From a virus: a stretch of 37,445 nt of DNA. The translations under genes were made by a program, and so were the position numbers. Below, one piece after another: positions 3,854-8,235 of this stretch; the first letter of the stretch is position 1, and each line of letters opens with the position of its first letter. Below the pieces are notes generated by a model that was not told the DNA's origin, ran no database searches, and saw only the letters and a list, made by a program, of their open reading frames with translations. The stretch spans positions 1 to 37,445 of IMG/VR virus record IMGVR_UViG_3300037245_000681, one strand, 5' to 3'.

Positions 3854-4215
3854 TGACTAATCTTGATAAGCAATTAGAAGAGTTAATCAAAGAGCGTAAT
3901 GATTTTGAGGCTGAGAATATAGCGTTAAAAGCACAGGTTAATTGTCTGTCTAACTTCCTAGAAAATACAGCGGTGCCAGTGTTTGTATTGGCTGTAAATG
4001 ACTACCCAGTCTCTCATGGCCCAGCTAGCAATCTAACCGACCTTAACGAGGTTATAAGTAAAACCACTAAACAATGCCTTAACAGTGTTAAAGCTTCAGC
4101 GGTGCAGGGTTTTGTTGATACTTTAGATGGTAATTCAGGAATAAAGGTTTACGAGTCAAGAATTAAAAAGGATGGTCGTGATTATGCGATTAAACTAAGG
4201 AACAATAATGGATGA
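3853..4215 (+). CDS. Hypothetical protein with N-terminal coiled coil, 120 aa
   Basis: Residues 1-35 are a short leucine-rich coiled coil (LDKQLEELIKERNDFEAENIALKAQV), followed by a mixed alpha/beta part containing KASAVQGFVDTL. Coiled-coil starts of this kind are common in small phage proteins of unknown role. It is the last gene before the terminator at 4256-4282. Confidence 0.6.
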   Translation: MTNLDKQLEELIKERNDFEAENIALKAQVNCLSNFLENTAVPVFVLAVNDYPVSHGPASNLTDLNEVISKTTKQCLNSVKASAVQGFVDTLDGNSGIKVYESRIKKDGRDYAIKLRNNNG

Positions 4216-4232
4216 GTCCCTTGAATAAATAT

Positions 4233-4282
4233 ACCGCCTATTAAAGCGGTAAATTAAAAGGCTACATTGTGTAGCCTTTTTT
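4233..4282. terminator. Bidirectional rho-independent terminator
   Basis: A 7-bp stem (GGCTACA 4260-4266, TGTAGCC 4270-4276) extends through flanking A and T runs and ends in Ts on both strands. It can end the rightward operon (3098-4215) and the single leftward gene at 4290-4433. A weaker hairpin (ACCGC 4233-4237, GCGGT 4246-4250) lies just before it. Confidence 0.8.
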
Positions 4283-4289
4283 ATTGCTG

Positions 4290-4433
4290 TTATCCGCCAG
4301 TGAATCCGCTACTAATAACATTAGGCCATTGATAAGCAATGTTACCGCCCTCTTCAATCCTTGCACTTACTTGGGATAATAATCTTTCTATCTCGTAAAC
4401 ACAGTCAAACGCTTCTTTTAGTAAATCTTGCAT
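4290..4433 (-). CDS. Single-gene unit, hypothetical, 47 aa
   Basis: The ATG at 4433 has AAGGGG nine bases upstream. Longer upstream reading would run through a terminator and promoter and is rejected. The protein is an amphipathic helix rich in Glu and Leu, then a Gly-rich tail ending SGFTGG. No family is recognised. It has its own extended -10 promoter and is flanked by terminators, so it behaves like an independently transcribed moron gene. Confidence 0.6.
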   Translation of the reverse strand: MQDLLKEAFDCVYEIERLLSQVSARIEEGGNIAYQWPNVISSGFTGG

Positions 4434-4457
4434 ATAAACCCCTTTGTTAGTCTTTAT

Positions 4458-4466
4458 TATACCATA
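4458..4466 (-). promoter_or_regulatory. Extended -10 promoter (TGGTATAAT)
   Basis: On the minus strand the sequence is TGGTATAAT, a perfect -10 with the TG extension. It lies just after the terminator hairpin at 4484-4504 and upstream of the 47-residue gene. There is no good -35 box. Confidence 0.65.
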
Positions 4467-4477
4467 ACCAAGACGTA

Positions 4478-4507
4478 AAAAAGCCACTTGATTAGAGTGG
4501 CTTTTAG
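4478..4507 (-). terminator. Terminator of leftward replication operon
   Basis: AGCCACT (4484-4490) pairs with AGTGGCT (4498-4504). On the minus strand the stem is followed by six Ts, so it terminates transcription from the 8493-4565 operon. The plus strand also has a short T run. Confidence 0.75.
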
Positions 4508-4564
4508 GCAGCGAGTGAGTATAAAACAAAGAGAGAGCGATGCGTTATAACTCAGTGTAACACG

Positions 4565-4702
4565 TTATTTAACTTGCTGCTGCATTTCCTCGTAATGTTC
4601 AATCGAGTCTCTATACTTGCCAGCCTCTTTTATCTCACCAACTTCTAACGCTGCTGACTCTTTTACTAGTAACTCTTTTATTTTATCGTTGTACCATGTC
4701 AT
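4565..4702 (-). CDS. Hypothetical helical protein, 45 aa
   Basis: A small, charged, probably all-helical protein with no recognised family. Its ATG immediately follows the TAA of the upstream gene with no gap, and GGGG lies ten bases upstream. It is the last gene before the leftward terminator at 4478-4507. Confidence 0.5.
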   Translation of the reverse strand: MTWYNDKIKELLVKESAALEVGEIKEAGKYRDSIEHYEEMQQQVK

Positions 4703-4900
4703 TTATAAATCCCCGTCCTGAGTAAACTGTAAGCGATATTCACCCTTAGTGATTATTAGCGCGTCTTTATCTTGCCCGTCTAACTTCATGCTCATAATTG
4801 CCATTGTTGCCGTTACAAGCTCATCAAAGAACTCATCGTTTGACAGTCCGTTAAGTGTTGCAAATTCTCGCCAAATATTATTATCCATTCTATATACCAT
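4703..4900 (-). CDS. Hypothetical protein, 65 aa
   Basis: A small acidic protein of unknown function with a helical core (DEFFDELVTATMAIMSM) and a C-terminal beta hairpin. There is no clear Shine-Dalgarno sequence before either possible ATG (4900 or 4888), so the start is uncertain. The stop abuts the start of the next gene. Confidence 0.5.
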   Translation of the reverse strand: MVYRMDNNIWREFATLNGLSNDEFFDELVTATMAIMSMKLDGQDKDALIITKGEYRLQFTQDGDL

Positions 4901-4910
4901 CTTAGTTTAG

Positions 4911-5078
4911 TTAAAATTTAATTTGCACGTTGTACGCATCGATATCTCCACACGCTAGGTTATGCTGACTCATTGAACCCCTGGCGCCTAATTCGAATTC
5001 TACCCACTCCGTGATGTCGCTATCTGATGGAGTTTCCTGTACGTCAACTGTAAATGTAACTTCTATTTGCTTACTCAT
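4911..5078 (-). CDS. Hypothetical protein, 55 aa
   Basis: A small beta-rich acidic protein starting MSKQIEVTFTVDV, with a good AGGAAG ribosome binding site. It is not recognised. It lies in the replication operon, between the 61-residue and 65-residue genes. Confidence 0.5.
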   Translation of the reverse strand: MSKQIEVTFTVDVQETPSDSDITEWVEFELGARGSMSQHNLACGDIDAYNVQIKF

Positions 5079-5101
5079 CTTGTTACTTCCTTTATATAGT
5101 T

Positions 5102-5287
5102 TTAGTTATTTAACTTATCAAGCGCTAGTTTTGCCTTGGTCATATCATCGCTAGCAGCACCAAGATTGTTGACGCATTTTAAAGCTAGTTGGCCATGTGC
5201 TTTATCTGCCGCTAGTAACGCAATAGCCATTAACAGATTATTTGTTATCATTTGATTTTGAATCATTAGTTTTGTTTCGTCAGTCAT
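5102..5287 (-). CDS. Hypothetical helical protein, 61 aa
   Basis: An Ala/Leu-rich, amphipathic, all-helical small protein with no recognised family. Its start codon and AAAGGG ribosome binding site lie inside a 25-bp sequence repeated exactly at 6148-6172. The gene therefore carries the same translation start region as the gene at 5911-6150. Confidence 0.5.
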   Translation of the reverse strand: MTDETKLMIQNQMITNNLLMAIALLAADKAHGQLALKCVNNLGAASDDMTKAKLALDKLNN

Positions 5288-5309
5288 TTTATAATCCCTT
5301 TGTTATTTA
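5285..5309. repeat. 25-bp direct repeat flanking the dpdA-like cassette, copy 1
   Basis: Bases 5285-5309 are identical to 6148-6172. Each copy contains a start codon (minus strand), an AAAGGG ribosome binding site and a few bases of upstream spacer. The two copies enclose exactly the two-gene cassette 5307-6150, as if it had been inserted at, or duplicated, the spacer. Confidence 0.85.
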
Positions 5310-5909
5310 ACACCAATTTAACTGGACTATTAAGTCCTTCTTTTTTAACCTGTCACTTAGTTTTTGCAACATATCCCTATGTATACTTATGCCACTACCG
5401 TCACAGGTGTGCGCGCCAATACAATGAAAATGGTAAAACCTATATATAGTGTTAACCCTTCCTATATGTACATGCATGCCGTTATCCAGCGCAGCCCTTA
5501 CTATCTGCTCAGCTTCATAGCTATCCTTAAAATGAGTACTACCACCTAAAAATATCGCATCAGCATTACTAGGCCATTCGTCAAAACCATCTTGAACGAC
5601 GAACGCTTTTTTATACCCGTCTGCCAAATGGTGGTACTCGCTCCACATCGCCAAAGTCTGCTTGTGATCTTCAACCTTGTCCGGCACAGCTGCAAACAAA
5701 CAGTTGTCTTTAAAGTCCCATTGATTTTCCAATATCTTTTTAAATCCTTTAGGCTTTGCCTCTCTAAAACCTCCGTTATCAACTCCAAAAACCTCTTCGC
5801 ATCTTCTATACCTAGTTAACGGTGTCATTAACTGACCAGCGATAAGGTTAGCATCTTGCGCTCTTTTTTCTTTTAGCCTCGCTTCGCTGCCGTCAATTAA
5901 AAACCTCAT
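5307..5909 (-). CDS. DpdA-like 7-deazaguanine DNA transglycosylase, 200 aa
   Basis: The protein follows the order of conserved segments of the tRNA-guanine transglycosylase fold as seen in phage DpdA proteins: DNGGF near residue 44, VPD near 75 (position of the first catalytic Asp), VVQDG near 105 (substrate-binding Gln), FLGGST near 119 (paired Gly), HIGRVN near 148, and TCDGSG near 169 with the candidate nucleophile Asp. At 200 residues it lacks the C-terminal zinc domain of tRNA enzymes. DpdA proteins exchange guanine in DNA for 7-deazaguanines, protecting phage DNA from restriction. No preQ0 synthesis genes are seen, so the base would come from the host queuosine pathway. GAGAGG precedes the ATG. 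Confidence 0.7.
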   Translation of the reverse strand: MRFLIDGSEARLKEKRAQDANLIAGQLMTPLTRYRRCEEVFGVDNGGFREAKPKGFKKILENQWDFKDNCLFAAVPDKVEDHKQTLAMWSEYHHLADGYKKAFVVQDGFDEWPSNADAIFLGGSTHFKDSYEAEQIVRAALDNGMHVHIGRVNTIYRFYHFHCIGAHTCDGSGISIHRDMLQKLSDRLKKKDLIVQLNWC

Positions 5910-5910
5910 T

Positions 5911-6150
5911 TTAACCTCTCGTAGTCGTAATCAATACGCCTTGATGCGTGGCTGTCATTGTATGCTTACCCTTAAACTGGCTAGATAAAATATCCGCTAT
6001 ATCTTCGTGGTGCTTTTCTTTAATCATCTTGCAGCTGGTAACGATATGCTCAACCATAATCTTTTTATCTGACTCAATAGTTAAGTTGTAAATAATTAGT
6101 TCGCCATCATTAGGGCATATCACTGGAAACTCGTAGTTGTACTTATTCAT
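5911..6150 (-). CDS. Possible tunnelling-fold (QueF/FolE-like) partner of DpdA, 79 aa
   Basis: It has CP near residue 12, a VE pair near 33, HHED near 48, and GVLITT near the end. This order (CP, VE, HED, Gly-rich strand) resembles the tunnelling-fold enzyme QueF, which acts on preQ0, but the spacing between VE and HED is about four residues shorter and the protein is small. The stop is one base before the dpdA-like start, so the two are co-translated. If the reading is right, it may tailor the deazaguanine base. It could equally be an unrelated small protein. The start lies in the 25-bp repeat. Confidence 0.35.
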   Translation of the reverse strand: MNKYNYEFPVICPNDGELIIYNLTIESDKKIMVEHIVTSCKMIKEKHHEDIADILSSQFKGKHTMTATHQGVLITTTRG

Positions 6151-6172
6151 TTTATAATCCCTTTGTTATTTA
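6148..6172. repeat. 25-bp direct repeat flanking the dpdA-like cassette, copy 2
   Basis: Identical to 5285-5309. It provides the start codon and ribosome binding site of the gene at 5911-6150. Confidence 0.85.
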
Positions 6173-6179
6173 CTGCTCT

Positions 6180-7562
6180 TTAGATTGGCATTCCGCGTTT
6201 TTGCGGTACTGGTTTTAATCTGTTTTCTTCTTCAAGTTGCATCATTCCGACTTGCGTTTCTGATAGCGGTATAAATGCTCCGTTAATCTTCTCCAAGTAA
6301 ACTGTTCCGTTGCCATCGCTATGACGGTCTTTAGCTATGATTAATTCAGTGACACCCTTGAGTAAAGTTTCAGGCTCTAACACTTCTTGACGATGCACAA
6401 ACATAATTAAATCTGCATCAGCCTCAATACAGCTTGAGTCTTTCAGGTTTGACATGTTAGGGCGCATTGGTGCTTTGTATCGGTTAGCTTGGCAACATAA
6501 AATAATAGGAACCTTAACCTCTTTCGCCAGCTCTTTTAAGTCGCGGGTAATGTTTCCGATCGCAATATCGTGACGGTCTGCTTTGCCTAATTTCATCAAG
6601 CCCAAGTAATCAATAAATATAGCTGATAGGTCAGGGTTTTTAGCTTTGTGACGTCTAACTTTAGCGCGTACTTGACCTACTGATTGTTTAGGTTGATCGG
6701 TAATATAAATTCCTGACTCTCTAAGGCTAGTTAATGCTACGTTAGTTCGTCCGAATGCCTCTGTATCAAGTCTTGCTGACCTTAAATTAGCCGCTGGTAT
6801 ATTGCCAACACCTGACACGAAACGCTCAAACAATTCAATTTCTGACATTTCCATACTAAAAAACATAACGTTCTTTTTCTGGTTAACACCGATGTTAGCC
6901 GCGAGAGTTTGACAGAATAAAGTCTTACCCATTGAAGGCGCACCAGCAACAATCACTAATGACTCTTCACCAATACCGTTAATTCTTTCGTCAAGTTGAT
7001 CGATACCAGTACACAATCCAGCGATTGCACCGCCCATTTTCATGCGTTCATCTAGTCTATCCAACCAATCACCCTCTACATCGCGGATATGGGCTAATTC
7101 TGCTCCTGACGAACTCACAGCGGCATCTTTAAGTGCATTATCTAGTTGTTCGATGATTTCCTCAGCAGGAACGTTTTGATTAACAAGATTACTAGCGTTA
7201 TTTAATATGGTTGCCAAGTTACGCAATTGAGCGCACTTTTTAACAATAGAAACGTAACCAGGTAAGTTGTAATGGCCGTTAGTTGCCTTGTTCATTTCAG
7301 CTAAATAAATGAATCCACCACAATCAGCGATAGTATTACTTTTTTCTAGTTCATCAGTAACCGTTATCAAGTCAGCGTGAATTTTATTTTCAGACATTAA
7401 TTTTATCGTTCTGAAAACTATCCTGTGAGACATACTATAAAAATCGTCATCAGATAAACTATCTAAAGTTTCACGGCAATTTGTATGCGTTGAGTCTTTC
7501 AGCAAAGCGCCAATTATTTGTTGCTCAACTTCTGTATTGTGAGCTGGTTCGTTAGTTGTCAT
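6180..7562 (-). CDS. dnaB: Replicative DNA helicase, DnaB family, 460 aa
   Basis: This is a full-length DnaB-type helicase. The N-terminal helical domain (NTEVEQQIIGALL) holds DnaG and loader contacts. The RecA-like domain has Walker A GAPSMGKT near residue 205, the MEMS motif after it, and a Walker B-like segment IFIDYLGLM near 316, followed by the ILCCQANR sensor region. It unwinds the phage fork as a hexamer. The start overlaps the upstream initiator gene by 11 bases and has GAGGGA five bases before it. No separate loader is recognised, so the upstream initiator may load it, as lambda O and P do together. Confidence 0.93.
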   Translation of the reverse strand: MTTNEPAHNTEVEQQIIGALLKDSTHTNCRETLDSLSDDDFYSMSHRIVFRTIKLMSENKIHADLITVTDELEKSNTIADCGGFIYLAEMNKATNGHYNLPGYVSIVKKCAQLRNLATILNNASNLVNQNVPAEEIIEQLDNALKDAAVSSSGAELAHIRDVEGDWLDRLDERMKMGGAIAGLCTGIDQLDERINGIGEESLVIVAGAPSMGKTLFCQTLAANIGVNQKKNVMFFSMEMSEIELFERFVSGVGNIPAANLRSARLDTEAFGRTNVALTSLRESGIYITDQPKQSVGQVRAKVRRHKAKNPDLSAIFIDYLGLMKLGKADRHDIAIGNITRDLKELAKEVKVPIILCCQANRYKAPMRPNMSNLKDSSCIEADADLIMFVHRQEVLEPETLLKGVTELIIAKDRHSDGNGTVYLEKINGAFIPLSETQVGMMQLEEENRLKPVPQKRGMPI

Positions 7563-8235
7563 AATTTCCCTCTACTACTTTTAATAAGTTATTTTTGTTT
7601 ACCAGGAAGTCAAAGGTAGCTGTAAAATCTGTTTTGCGCCCCATAAGAAAATCGATACCTGAAACATAATCAAAATATCTAACCCATGTTTCAATCTTGG
7701 TAAAGTCGTTATCTGTTTTTTCCATTTGCTTGATCGTTCCTTTAATCCAAGCTTTTCGCTTATCAGATAAAACCTTTACTTCACCTAACTCTGATAACTT
7801 CGAATTGAACTCATCAACGACAAGTTGATATAAGTCTTTATTAACATTGTTTTCATTCTTATCATTCTTGTTAGTTGCCCCTTGCTTGCCCTTGGCTTGC
7901 CCCTTGTTTGCCACTTCGCTTGCCTCGTCCTGATATAAATCATAGTTAACCATAGTAAAAACAGTATGTTGCGCCGTACTTATGCTTGCCACTTCGTTGG
8001 TCGATTTTAGACGTTTTATTGAAGTGCGAATATTTTTTATTGAGAGGTTAGTCTCGCTTGCAAGTGCCGATATTGAGGTTAATCGCTGCCCCCTTTTAAT
8101 GTCTATTCCTCGCCATTTATTGTCCTTGTGATTAGCAACGATCAACAAGTGAAGAAATACGCGAGTTGTATTTACATCGTTATACCACTCCCAATCTAAT
8201 AATTGGCGGTGGAGTTTAACCCAACCTGTACTCAT
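7552..8235 (-). CDS. Replication initiator, lambda O-like/DnaD-like, 227 aa
   Basis: The N-terminal 100 residues begin GWVKLHRQLLDWEWYND and form a winged-helix domain of the kind found in phage replisome organisers (TSISALASETNLSIKNIRTSIKRLKS is the HTH part). A hydrophilic Lys/Asn/Gly linker (about residues 103-135) follows, then a C-terminal helical domain that may contact the helicase. The linker DNA holds five 11-bp-phased repeats that may be the origin, as in lambda O. It overlaps the helicase gene by 11 bases. AAAGGA precedes the start. Confidence 0.75.
   Translation of the reverse strand: MSTGWVKLHRQLLDWEWYNDVNTTRVFLHLLIVANHKDNKWRGIDIKRGQRLTSISALASETNLSIKNIRTSIKRLKSTNEVASISTAQHTVFTMVNYDLYQDEASEVANKGQAKGKQGATNKNDKNENNVNKDLYQLVVDEFNSKLSELGEVKVLSDKRKAWIKGTIKQMEKTDNDFTKIETWVRYFDYVSGIDFLMGRKTDFTATFDFLVNKNNLLKVVEGNYDN
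7830..7924. other. Candidate replication origin with phased iterons inside the initiator gene
   Basis: The pentamer TTGCC begins at 7875, 7886, 7897, 7908 and 7920, a spacing of 11, 11, 11 and 12 bases, about one helix turn. A sixth copy with longer identity (TTGCCACTTCG, as at 7908) is at 7986. An AT-rich stretch (7830-7870) adjoins on the downstream side of the gene. The 11-base period is not a codon multiple, so it is not a by-product of a repeated peptide. Lambda has the same plan (iterons plus AT-rich region within O). Function is inferred. Confidence 0.5.

Follow-up and report, generated by a model that had tools for sequence, protein, structure and literature searches.

A short DpdA-like transglycosylase and a 79-residue tunnelling-fold partner as a candidate two-gene unit for 7-deazaguanine modification of phage DNA

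The stretch of DNA analysed here, referred to as the window, is 37,445 nucleotides long and corresponds to a linear IMG/VR virus record (IMGVR_UViG_3300037245_000681). Its large terminase shares 71% identity with the terminases of Vibrio phages 1.144.O and V039C; the host is therefore likely to be Vibrio-like and, judged from the sequence, the source is probably a Vibrio phage. On the minus strand, the genes for a DnaD-like loader (7552-8235) and a DnaB helicase (6180-7562) are followed directly downstream by two small genes, first P2 (5911..6150, 79 aa, PHROG 37496) and then P1 (5307..5909, 200 aa, PHROG 15826, no Pfam family), with a single base between the stop of P2 and the start of P1. 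Both open reading frames lie where the original prediction had placed them. P1 is a predicted TGT/DpdA-like transglycosylase, and it is found within a replication gene cluster in the window, in phages phiG7 and R29Z and in the IMG/VR contig L075. P2 is a protein of the QueF-Like tunnelling-fold type that lies beyond the reach of the Pfam QueF family.

The P2-P1 unit is flanked exactly by two copies of a perfect 26-nt direct repeat, of which none is expected by chance, as estimated from shuffled sequences. The first copy (6147..6172) comprises a ribosome-binding leader and the P2 start codon; in the second (5284..5309), these two elements belong to the next gene and come after the P1 stop codon. 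This arrangement is compatible with P2-P1 being an inserted or exchangeable cassette, a reading weakened by the presence nearby of a further leader similar to the repeat. The repeat could be the mark of a unit of insertion or excision, or merely a shared leader. Promoter scans gave results at chance level only.

The AlphaFold model of P1 has a mean pLDDT of 94.5. When compared with the PDB using Foldseek, its best matches were TGT structures (2pot, E 6.4e-5, probability 1.00), with a TMq of 0.58 that represents a moderate similarity, and non-TGT barrels scored lower TM-scores than TGT. The predicted model therefore identifies P1 as a TGT-fold protein, and the original prediction, which hinged on such a fold, stands after this comparison. 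An alignment of 72 members contains 15 invariant positions (D44, C70, F72, P76, D77, Q106, F120, G122, G123, H148, G150, R151, N153, D170 and G171), by which the landmark motifs of the TGT fold, noticed originally in the single sequence, are conserved and not due to chance. Asp44, in the DNGGF motif (codon at 5778..5780, minus strand), and Asp170, in the TCDGSG motif (codon at 5400..5402, minus strand), are each invariant in 72/72 members, and we take them to be the likely equivalents of TGT Asp102 and of the TGT nucleophile Asp280, respectively. D44, D77, Q106, G122-G123 and D170 follow the same order as the catalytic and base-binding residues of TGT, an equivalence that we infer from what is established for TGT.

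Single-sequence searches of Pfam, NCBIfam and the PDB gave nothing usable for either P1 or P2, and profiles and predicted folds were required. Viral contigs scanned with single sequences gave one relative each, so that alignments took their place; with a small P1 alignment, 182 relatives were retrieved from these contigs, 80 of which were kept. Relatives of P1 occur in 22 phage records, several of them annotated as DpdA-like tRNA-guanine transglycosylase, and a tblastn search of Vibrio phage nt-1 with P1 gave no match. For some relatives an EAL-domain identity was considered (best Pfam E-value 0.0086), a weak match that was taken as generic barrel similarity.

At the profile level, P1 aligns by hhalign with HYH, our label for the family of Pseudomonas phage Epa33 gp11 (probability 96, E 1.7e-9), and with the Seuratvirus-type DpdA1 (probability 82, E 1.1e-5), while HYH and DpdA1 align with each other with a probability of 98.6. 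As found by tblastn, the HYH family takes in the DpdA of Pantoea phage MED16 (39%) and gp032 of Salmonella phage 7-11 (33%), which identifies it, by sequence relationship, with the singleton DpdA proteins described by Hutinet et al. (PMC6884629). Comparison of P1 with a small Pseudomonas TGT profile gave a probability of 0.3 and an E-value of 0.2, with no match to cellular TGT; the Pfam TGT family did not match P1, and a sequence-profile match between the DpdA set and TGT, sought directly, was not obtained. P1 also has only around half as many residues as a TGT; both the zinc site (CxCxxC...H) and the C-terminal region of the cellular enzyme are missing, C70 being the only invariant cysteine. 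Since no direct profile match to cellular TGT was obtained with this small profile, P1 is considered DpdA-like, as originally proposed, and not a canonical TGT. These features bear on the possibility that P1 and P2 modify tRNA or another RNA, inserting for example a preQ0-derived base into tRNA of the host or the phage in the course of infection. Among solved structures, the one nearest to P1 in fold is indeed a tRNA-guanine transglycosylase, and QueF-Like works on preQ0-tRNA (PMC5485725); however, the alignment with phage DpdA families, the reduced length lacking the cysteine cluster and C-terminal domain, the location of P1 in replication gene clusters and the lack of tRNA genes in the window make an RNA target quite unlikely. 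As a separate observation on the HYH family, a 1,719-base record labelled Staphylococcus phage (OR850331.1) contains a DpdA-like gene 45.9% identical to Epa33 gp11, the same value as that of Salmonella phages, and this record is possibly mislabelled or contaminated.

The AlphaFold model of P2 (mean pLDDT 96.9) is built of two strands, two helices and two further strands, in this order. The top 13 Foldseek matches in the PDB all correspond to the QueF-Like archaeosine synthase (5k0p/5jyx), followed by GTP cyclohydrolase I and QueF, and when the P2 profile was compared with the whole PDB the best sequence match was again QueF-Like (5jyx, E 0.012). P2 is, according to its model, a tunnelling-fold protein. 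A 44-member alignment shows no variation at five residues, C12, P13, Y21, E49 and H69, and C12 and E49 are kept even in members only 16-31% identical to the P2 of the window. Cys12 (codon at 6115..6117, minus strand) aligns with the thioimide-forming Cys21 of QueF-Like, and Glu49 (codon at 6004..6006, minus strand) with the substrate-binding Glu of the His-Glu pair of QueF and QueF-Like. A bacterial QueF was considered and rejected, as both profile and Foldseek comparisons favour QueF-Like and Pfam QueF (PF14489) has no match in the window; by eye, the ESK-type NADPH motif of QueF is also absent from the P2 alignment. Of the original proposal of a QueF-type partner, the tunnelling fold is thus retained, whereas the protein is nearer to archaeal QueF-Like than to QueF and lacks an active-site Asp.

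The position of this residue, seven after the Cys, is presumably that of the catalytic Asp, as judged from the alignment and from Bacillus subtilis QueF. It is occupied by Ile in the P2 of the window and in 57/57 HYH-paired relatives tested, while an Asp is present in four of the five P2 proteins that have other P1 genes as partners, and is shifted by one position in the fifth. An Asp acting as acid/base residue is common to QueF and QueF-Like (PMC5485725). Because it is missing, P2 may be unable to carry out the QueF-Like chemistry, its product could be an amidine, an amide or another group, and the P2 of the window is not classified as an archaeosine synthase.

Across 64 viral contigs and the phage records, 68 of the 69 P2 genes detected adjoin a TGT/DpdA-like gene, usually with a 4-nt overlap, and the only one that does not is found at a contig end. 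The partners belong to two TGT/DpdA-like subfamilies and are found in either gene order in unrelated phages. In the commonest arrangement P2 precedes HYH, and the cases with a known host are Pseudomonas prophages. Pseudomonas phage Epa33 also combines P2 with an HYH-type DpdA, and both Pseudomonas and Rhizobium members of this singleton DpdA family carry a P2 partner. The TGT-like gene comes first in Microcystis phage Mae-JY30, and P1 precedes P2 in five contigs (L097, L103, L106, L110 and L114), the reverse of the order in the window. Mapped on the P1 tree, the association with P2 requires five changes, and well-supported branches force four or more of them. In the P2 tree, the P2 of the window groups with HYH-paired proteins (100/100), from a short alignment whose bootstrap is not settled. 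As it groups with the P2 proteins of the other TGT subfamily, the pair appears to have been re-formed with a different partner, and the simplest reading of the trees is that P2 switched transglycosylase partners. The several gene orders and the two TGT subfamilies led us to reject the idea that P2 is just an adjacent gene passed down in a single lineage of phages. P1 and P2, which the original prediction had seen side by side in one genome, are, on this comparative evidence, a real gene pair that has formed repeatedly. The pairing is not universal: the closest relative of P1 (75% identity, contig L009) has no P2 anywhere across its 33.8-kb contig, so P2 is not required by every P1.

Such close association would also be expected if P2 had no catalytic function and served the transglycosylase as a structural or targeting subunit, which would bind the base or the DNA and set the specificity. 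Overlapping or adjacent genes are typical of the subunits of a complex, P2 is very small, and its clade in the window lacks the catalytic Asp. The invariant Cys12 and Glu49, however, match the nucleophile and the substrate ligand of QueF-Like, and the Asp is kept in the relatives paired with other P1 genes; a purely non-enzymatic role for P2 is for these reasons considered unlikely.

The surroundings of P1 genes link them to 7-deazaguanine metabolism. Among 85 immediate neighbours, 26 belong to families of this type: nine YhhQ-type transporters, seven PTPS/QueD, four radical-SAM proteins, three QueC, two QueF and one QueT. The same families were absent among the best 25 of the 41 families found for 85 control genes of these loci that lie 2 kb or more from P1. 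In contig L097, a transglycosylase, a mini-QueF-Like protein and a preQ0 transporter are encoded by an overlapping three-gene P1-P2-YhhQ operon (3935-5258), and in Rhizobium phage X2_30 a YhhQ gene is located two genes from P2. In contigs L120 and L122, a QueT-type transporter replaces YhhQ just downstream of P1. The window itself contains no match to QueC, PTPS/QueD, QueF, FolE, QueE-type radical-SAM or YhhQ families among its open reading frames, in agreement with the original observation that FolE, QueD, QueE and QueC genes are missing. QueC was likewise not found in 20 P1/P2-related records, the window included, and PTPS not in seven of such records. The preQ0 pathway is likely absent from the whole phage, of which the window, a contig of unstated completeness, is perhaps a part.

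P1 is also found alongside a full-length DpdA1, in R29Z (L005), phiG7 (L006), Arthrobacter phage Sonali (L185) and contig L075, and preQ0 synthesis genes accompany both in the annotated genomes (R29Z, phiG7 and Sonali). Given this coexistence, P1 may serve a purpose other than the main base insertion, with its own site or base preference. The presence of P1 beside a complete DpdA1 pathway could also suit a counter-defence role against nucleobase-protein conjugation, in which a TGT-like hydrolase and a deazaguanine-handling partner would strip or trap the base, in the manner of the Cap9/Cap10 chemistry of type IV CBASS; the TGT-family Cap10 acts in protein deazaguanylation during anti-phage defence (PMC11996544). 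The preQ0 transport and synthesis genes next to P1, together with its profile similarity to DpdA, point instead to base insertion, and such a counter-defence role is highly improbable. Homologues of P1 occur in the Seuratvirus phages phiG7 (L006, 12001-12593) and SHIN8, both infecting Escherichia coli. In both, the gene is broken up into two frames that overlap, close to a short run of G, for which a disabled gene, a sequencing error and a programmed frameshift are candidate explanations.

The explanation that we favour, with a probability of about 0.6, is that the P2-P1 cassette encodes two enzymes that jointly modify phage DNA with a 7-deazaguanine, fed by host preQ0, with P2 tailoring the base and the modification protecting against nucleases. 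P1, as a short DpdA-type transglycosylase, would replace guanine by a 7-deazaguanine, in the simplest case preQ0 supplied by the queuosine pathway of the host. Cys12 of P2 would attack the preQ0 nitrile to form a thioimide, which P2 would convert to a different group at position 7, an amidine (G+-like) or an amide being the likeliest. The conversion could take place on the free base or after the base has entered DNA; the latter has a precedent in QueF-Like, which acts on preQ0 already within nucleic acid (PMC5485725). The modified phage DNA would then resist host nucleases. What we infer here is that DNA is the substrate and preQ0 comes from the host, as well as the chemistry through a thioimide, its product and the protection of the DNA. 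Amidine formation would be only one of the options for a P2 lacking the Asp. A more specific version is put forward tentatively: P2 might represent a class of minimal, Asp-less tunnelling-fold enzymes, common in Pseudomonas prophages, which with a DpdA-like partner would form a two-gene unit making an undescribed 7-substituted base, in or for DNA, from host or imported preQ0.

The favoured explanation is of a known kind, the modification of phage DNA with 7-deazaguanines by DpdA and a tailoring enzyme. The nearest parallel is offered by the singleton DpdA phages 7-11 and MED16 (PMC6884629, PMC8306585), which also encode a short TGT-like protein without preQ0 synthesis genes and are presumed to use host preQ0. 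Virion DNA of both phages carries dADG although neither has preQ0 genes (PMC8306585, PMC6884629). P1 differs in belonging to a separate, divergent subfamily, and MED16 is reported with dpdA only, the search for P2 not having reached MED16 or 7-11. Amide formation by P2 would fit the unexplained dADG of the singleton DpdA phages, a proposal that is speculation because MED16 is reported with dpdA alone. Phage Orion, which has DpdA alone, shows no modification (PMC6884629), and this counts against the favoured explanation. Seuratvirus-type phages such as CAjan combine DpdA1 with FolE, QueD, QueE and QueC (PMC6884629); DpdA1 is a TGT-like family related to P1, but it has around 300 residues and a full preQ0 pathway, compared with the 200 residues of P1 and the lack of this pathway in the window.

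Regarding P2, the QueF-Like archaeosine synthase of Pyrobaculum (5jyx/5k0p; PMC5485725) shares with it the tunnelling fold, the nucleophilic Cys in a CP motif and the substrate-binding Glu. Unlike this enzyme, of about 109 residues, P2 has only 79 and lacks in the clade of the window the Asp at Cys+7; it is moreover viral, and its partner is DpdA-like instead of an archaeal tRNA transglycosylase. The logic of a transglycosylase with a tunnelling-fold tailoring enzyme is found in Streptococcus phage Dp-1, which has DpdA, QueF/QueF-L and preQ0 genes, and HVTV-1 has QueF-L and preQ0 genes; dPreQ1 or dG+ is present in the DNA of such phages (PMC6884629). Dp-1- and HVTV-1-type phages differ in that they encode preQ0 synthesis in full and that published searches can detect their QueF homologue, whereas P2 escapes the Pfam QueF model and the window lacks such a pathway.

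Among the published groups of phage DpdA proteins, the largest has no known base source, and the measured cases give little or puzzling modification, such as dADG, for which no amide-forming step is known. Located beside many singleton-type DpdA proteins, P2 is a testable candidate for the missing tailoring step. If the favoured explanation is true, P2-P1 would be smaller than any 7-deazaguanine DNA modification unit known so far, and would provide a compact means of labelling DNA at specific sites. P1 extends the DpdA-like enzymes to a 200-residue subfamily linked to preQ0 transporters. In the literature searched, which excluded most subscription journals, no description was found of a 79-residue tunnelling-fold partner, of its near-obligate pairing with two DpdA-like subfamilies or of its Asp-less active site.

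Finally, other tunnelling-fold proteins, unannotated and with an HLCPF...SHE pattern, are encoded in actinophages beside P1, as gp39 of phage Aoka (L007, 5601-5930) and upstream of P1 in contigs L134, L139 and L149. They keep the Cys, Asp and Glu of QueF-Like, and in two cases reach the Pfam QueF family.
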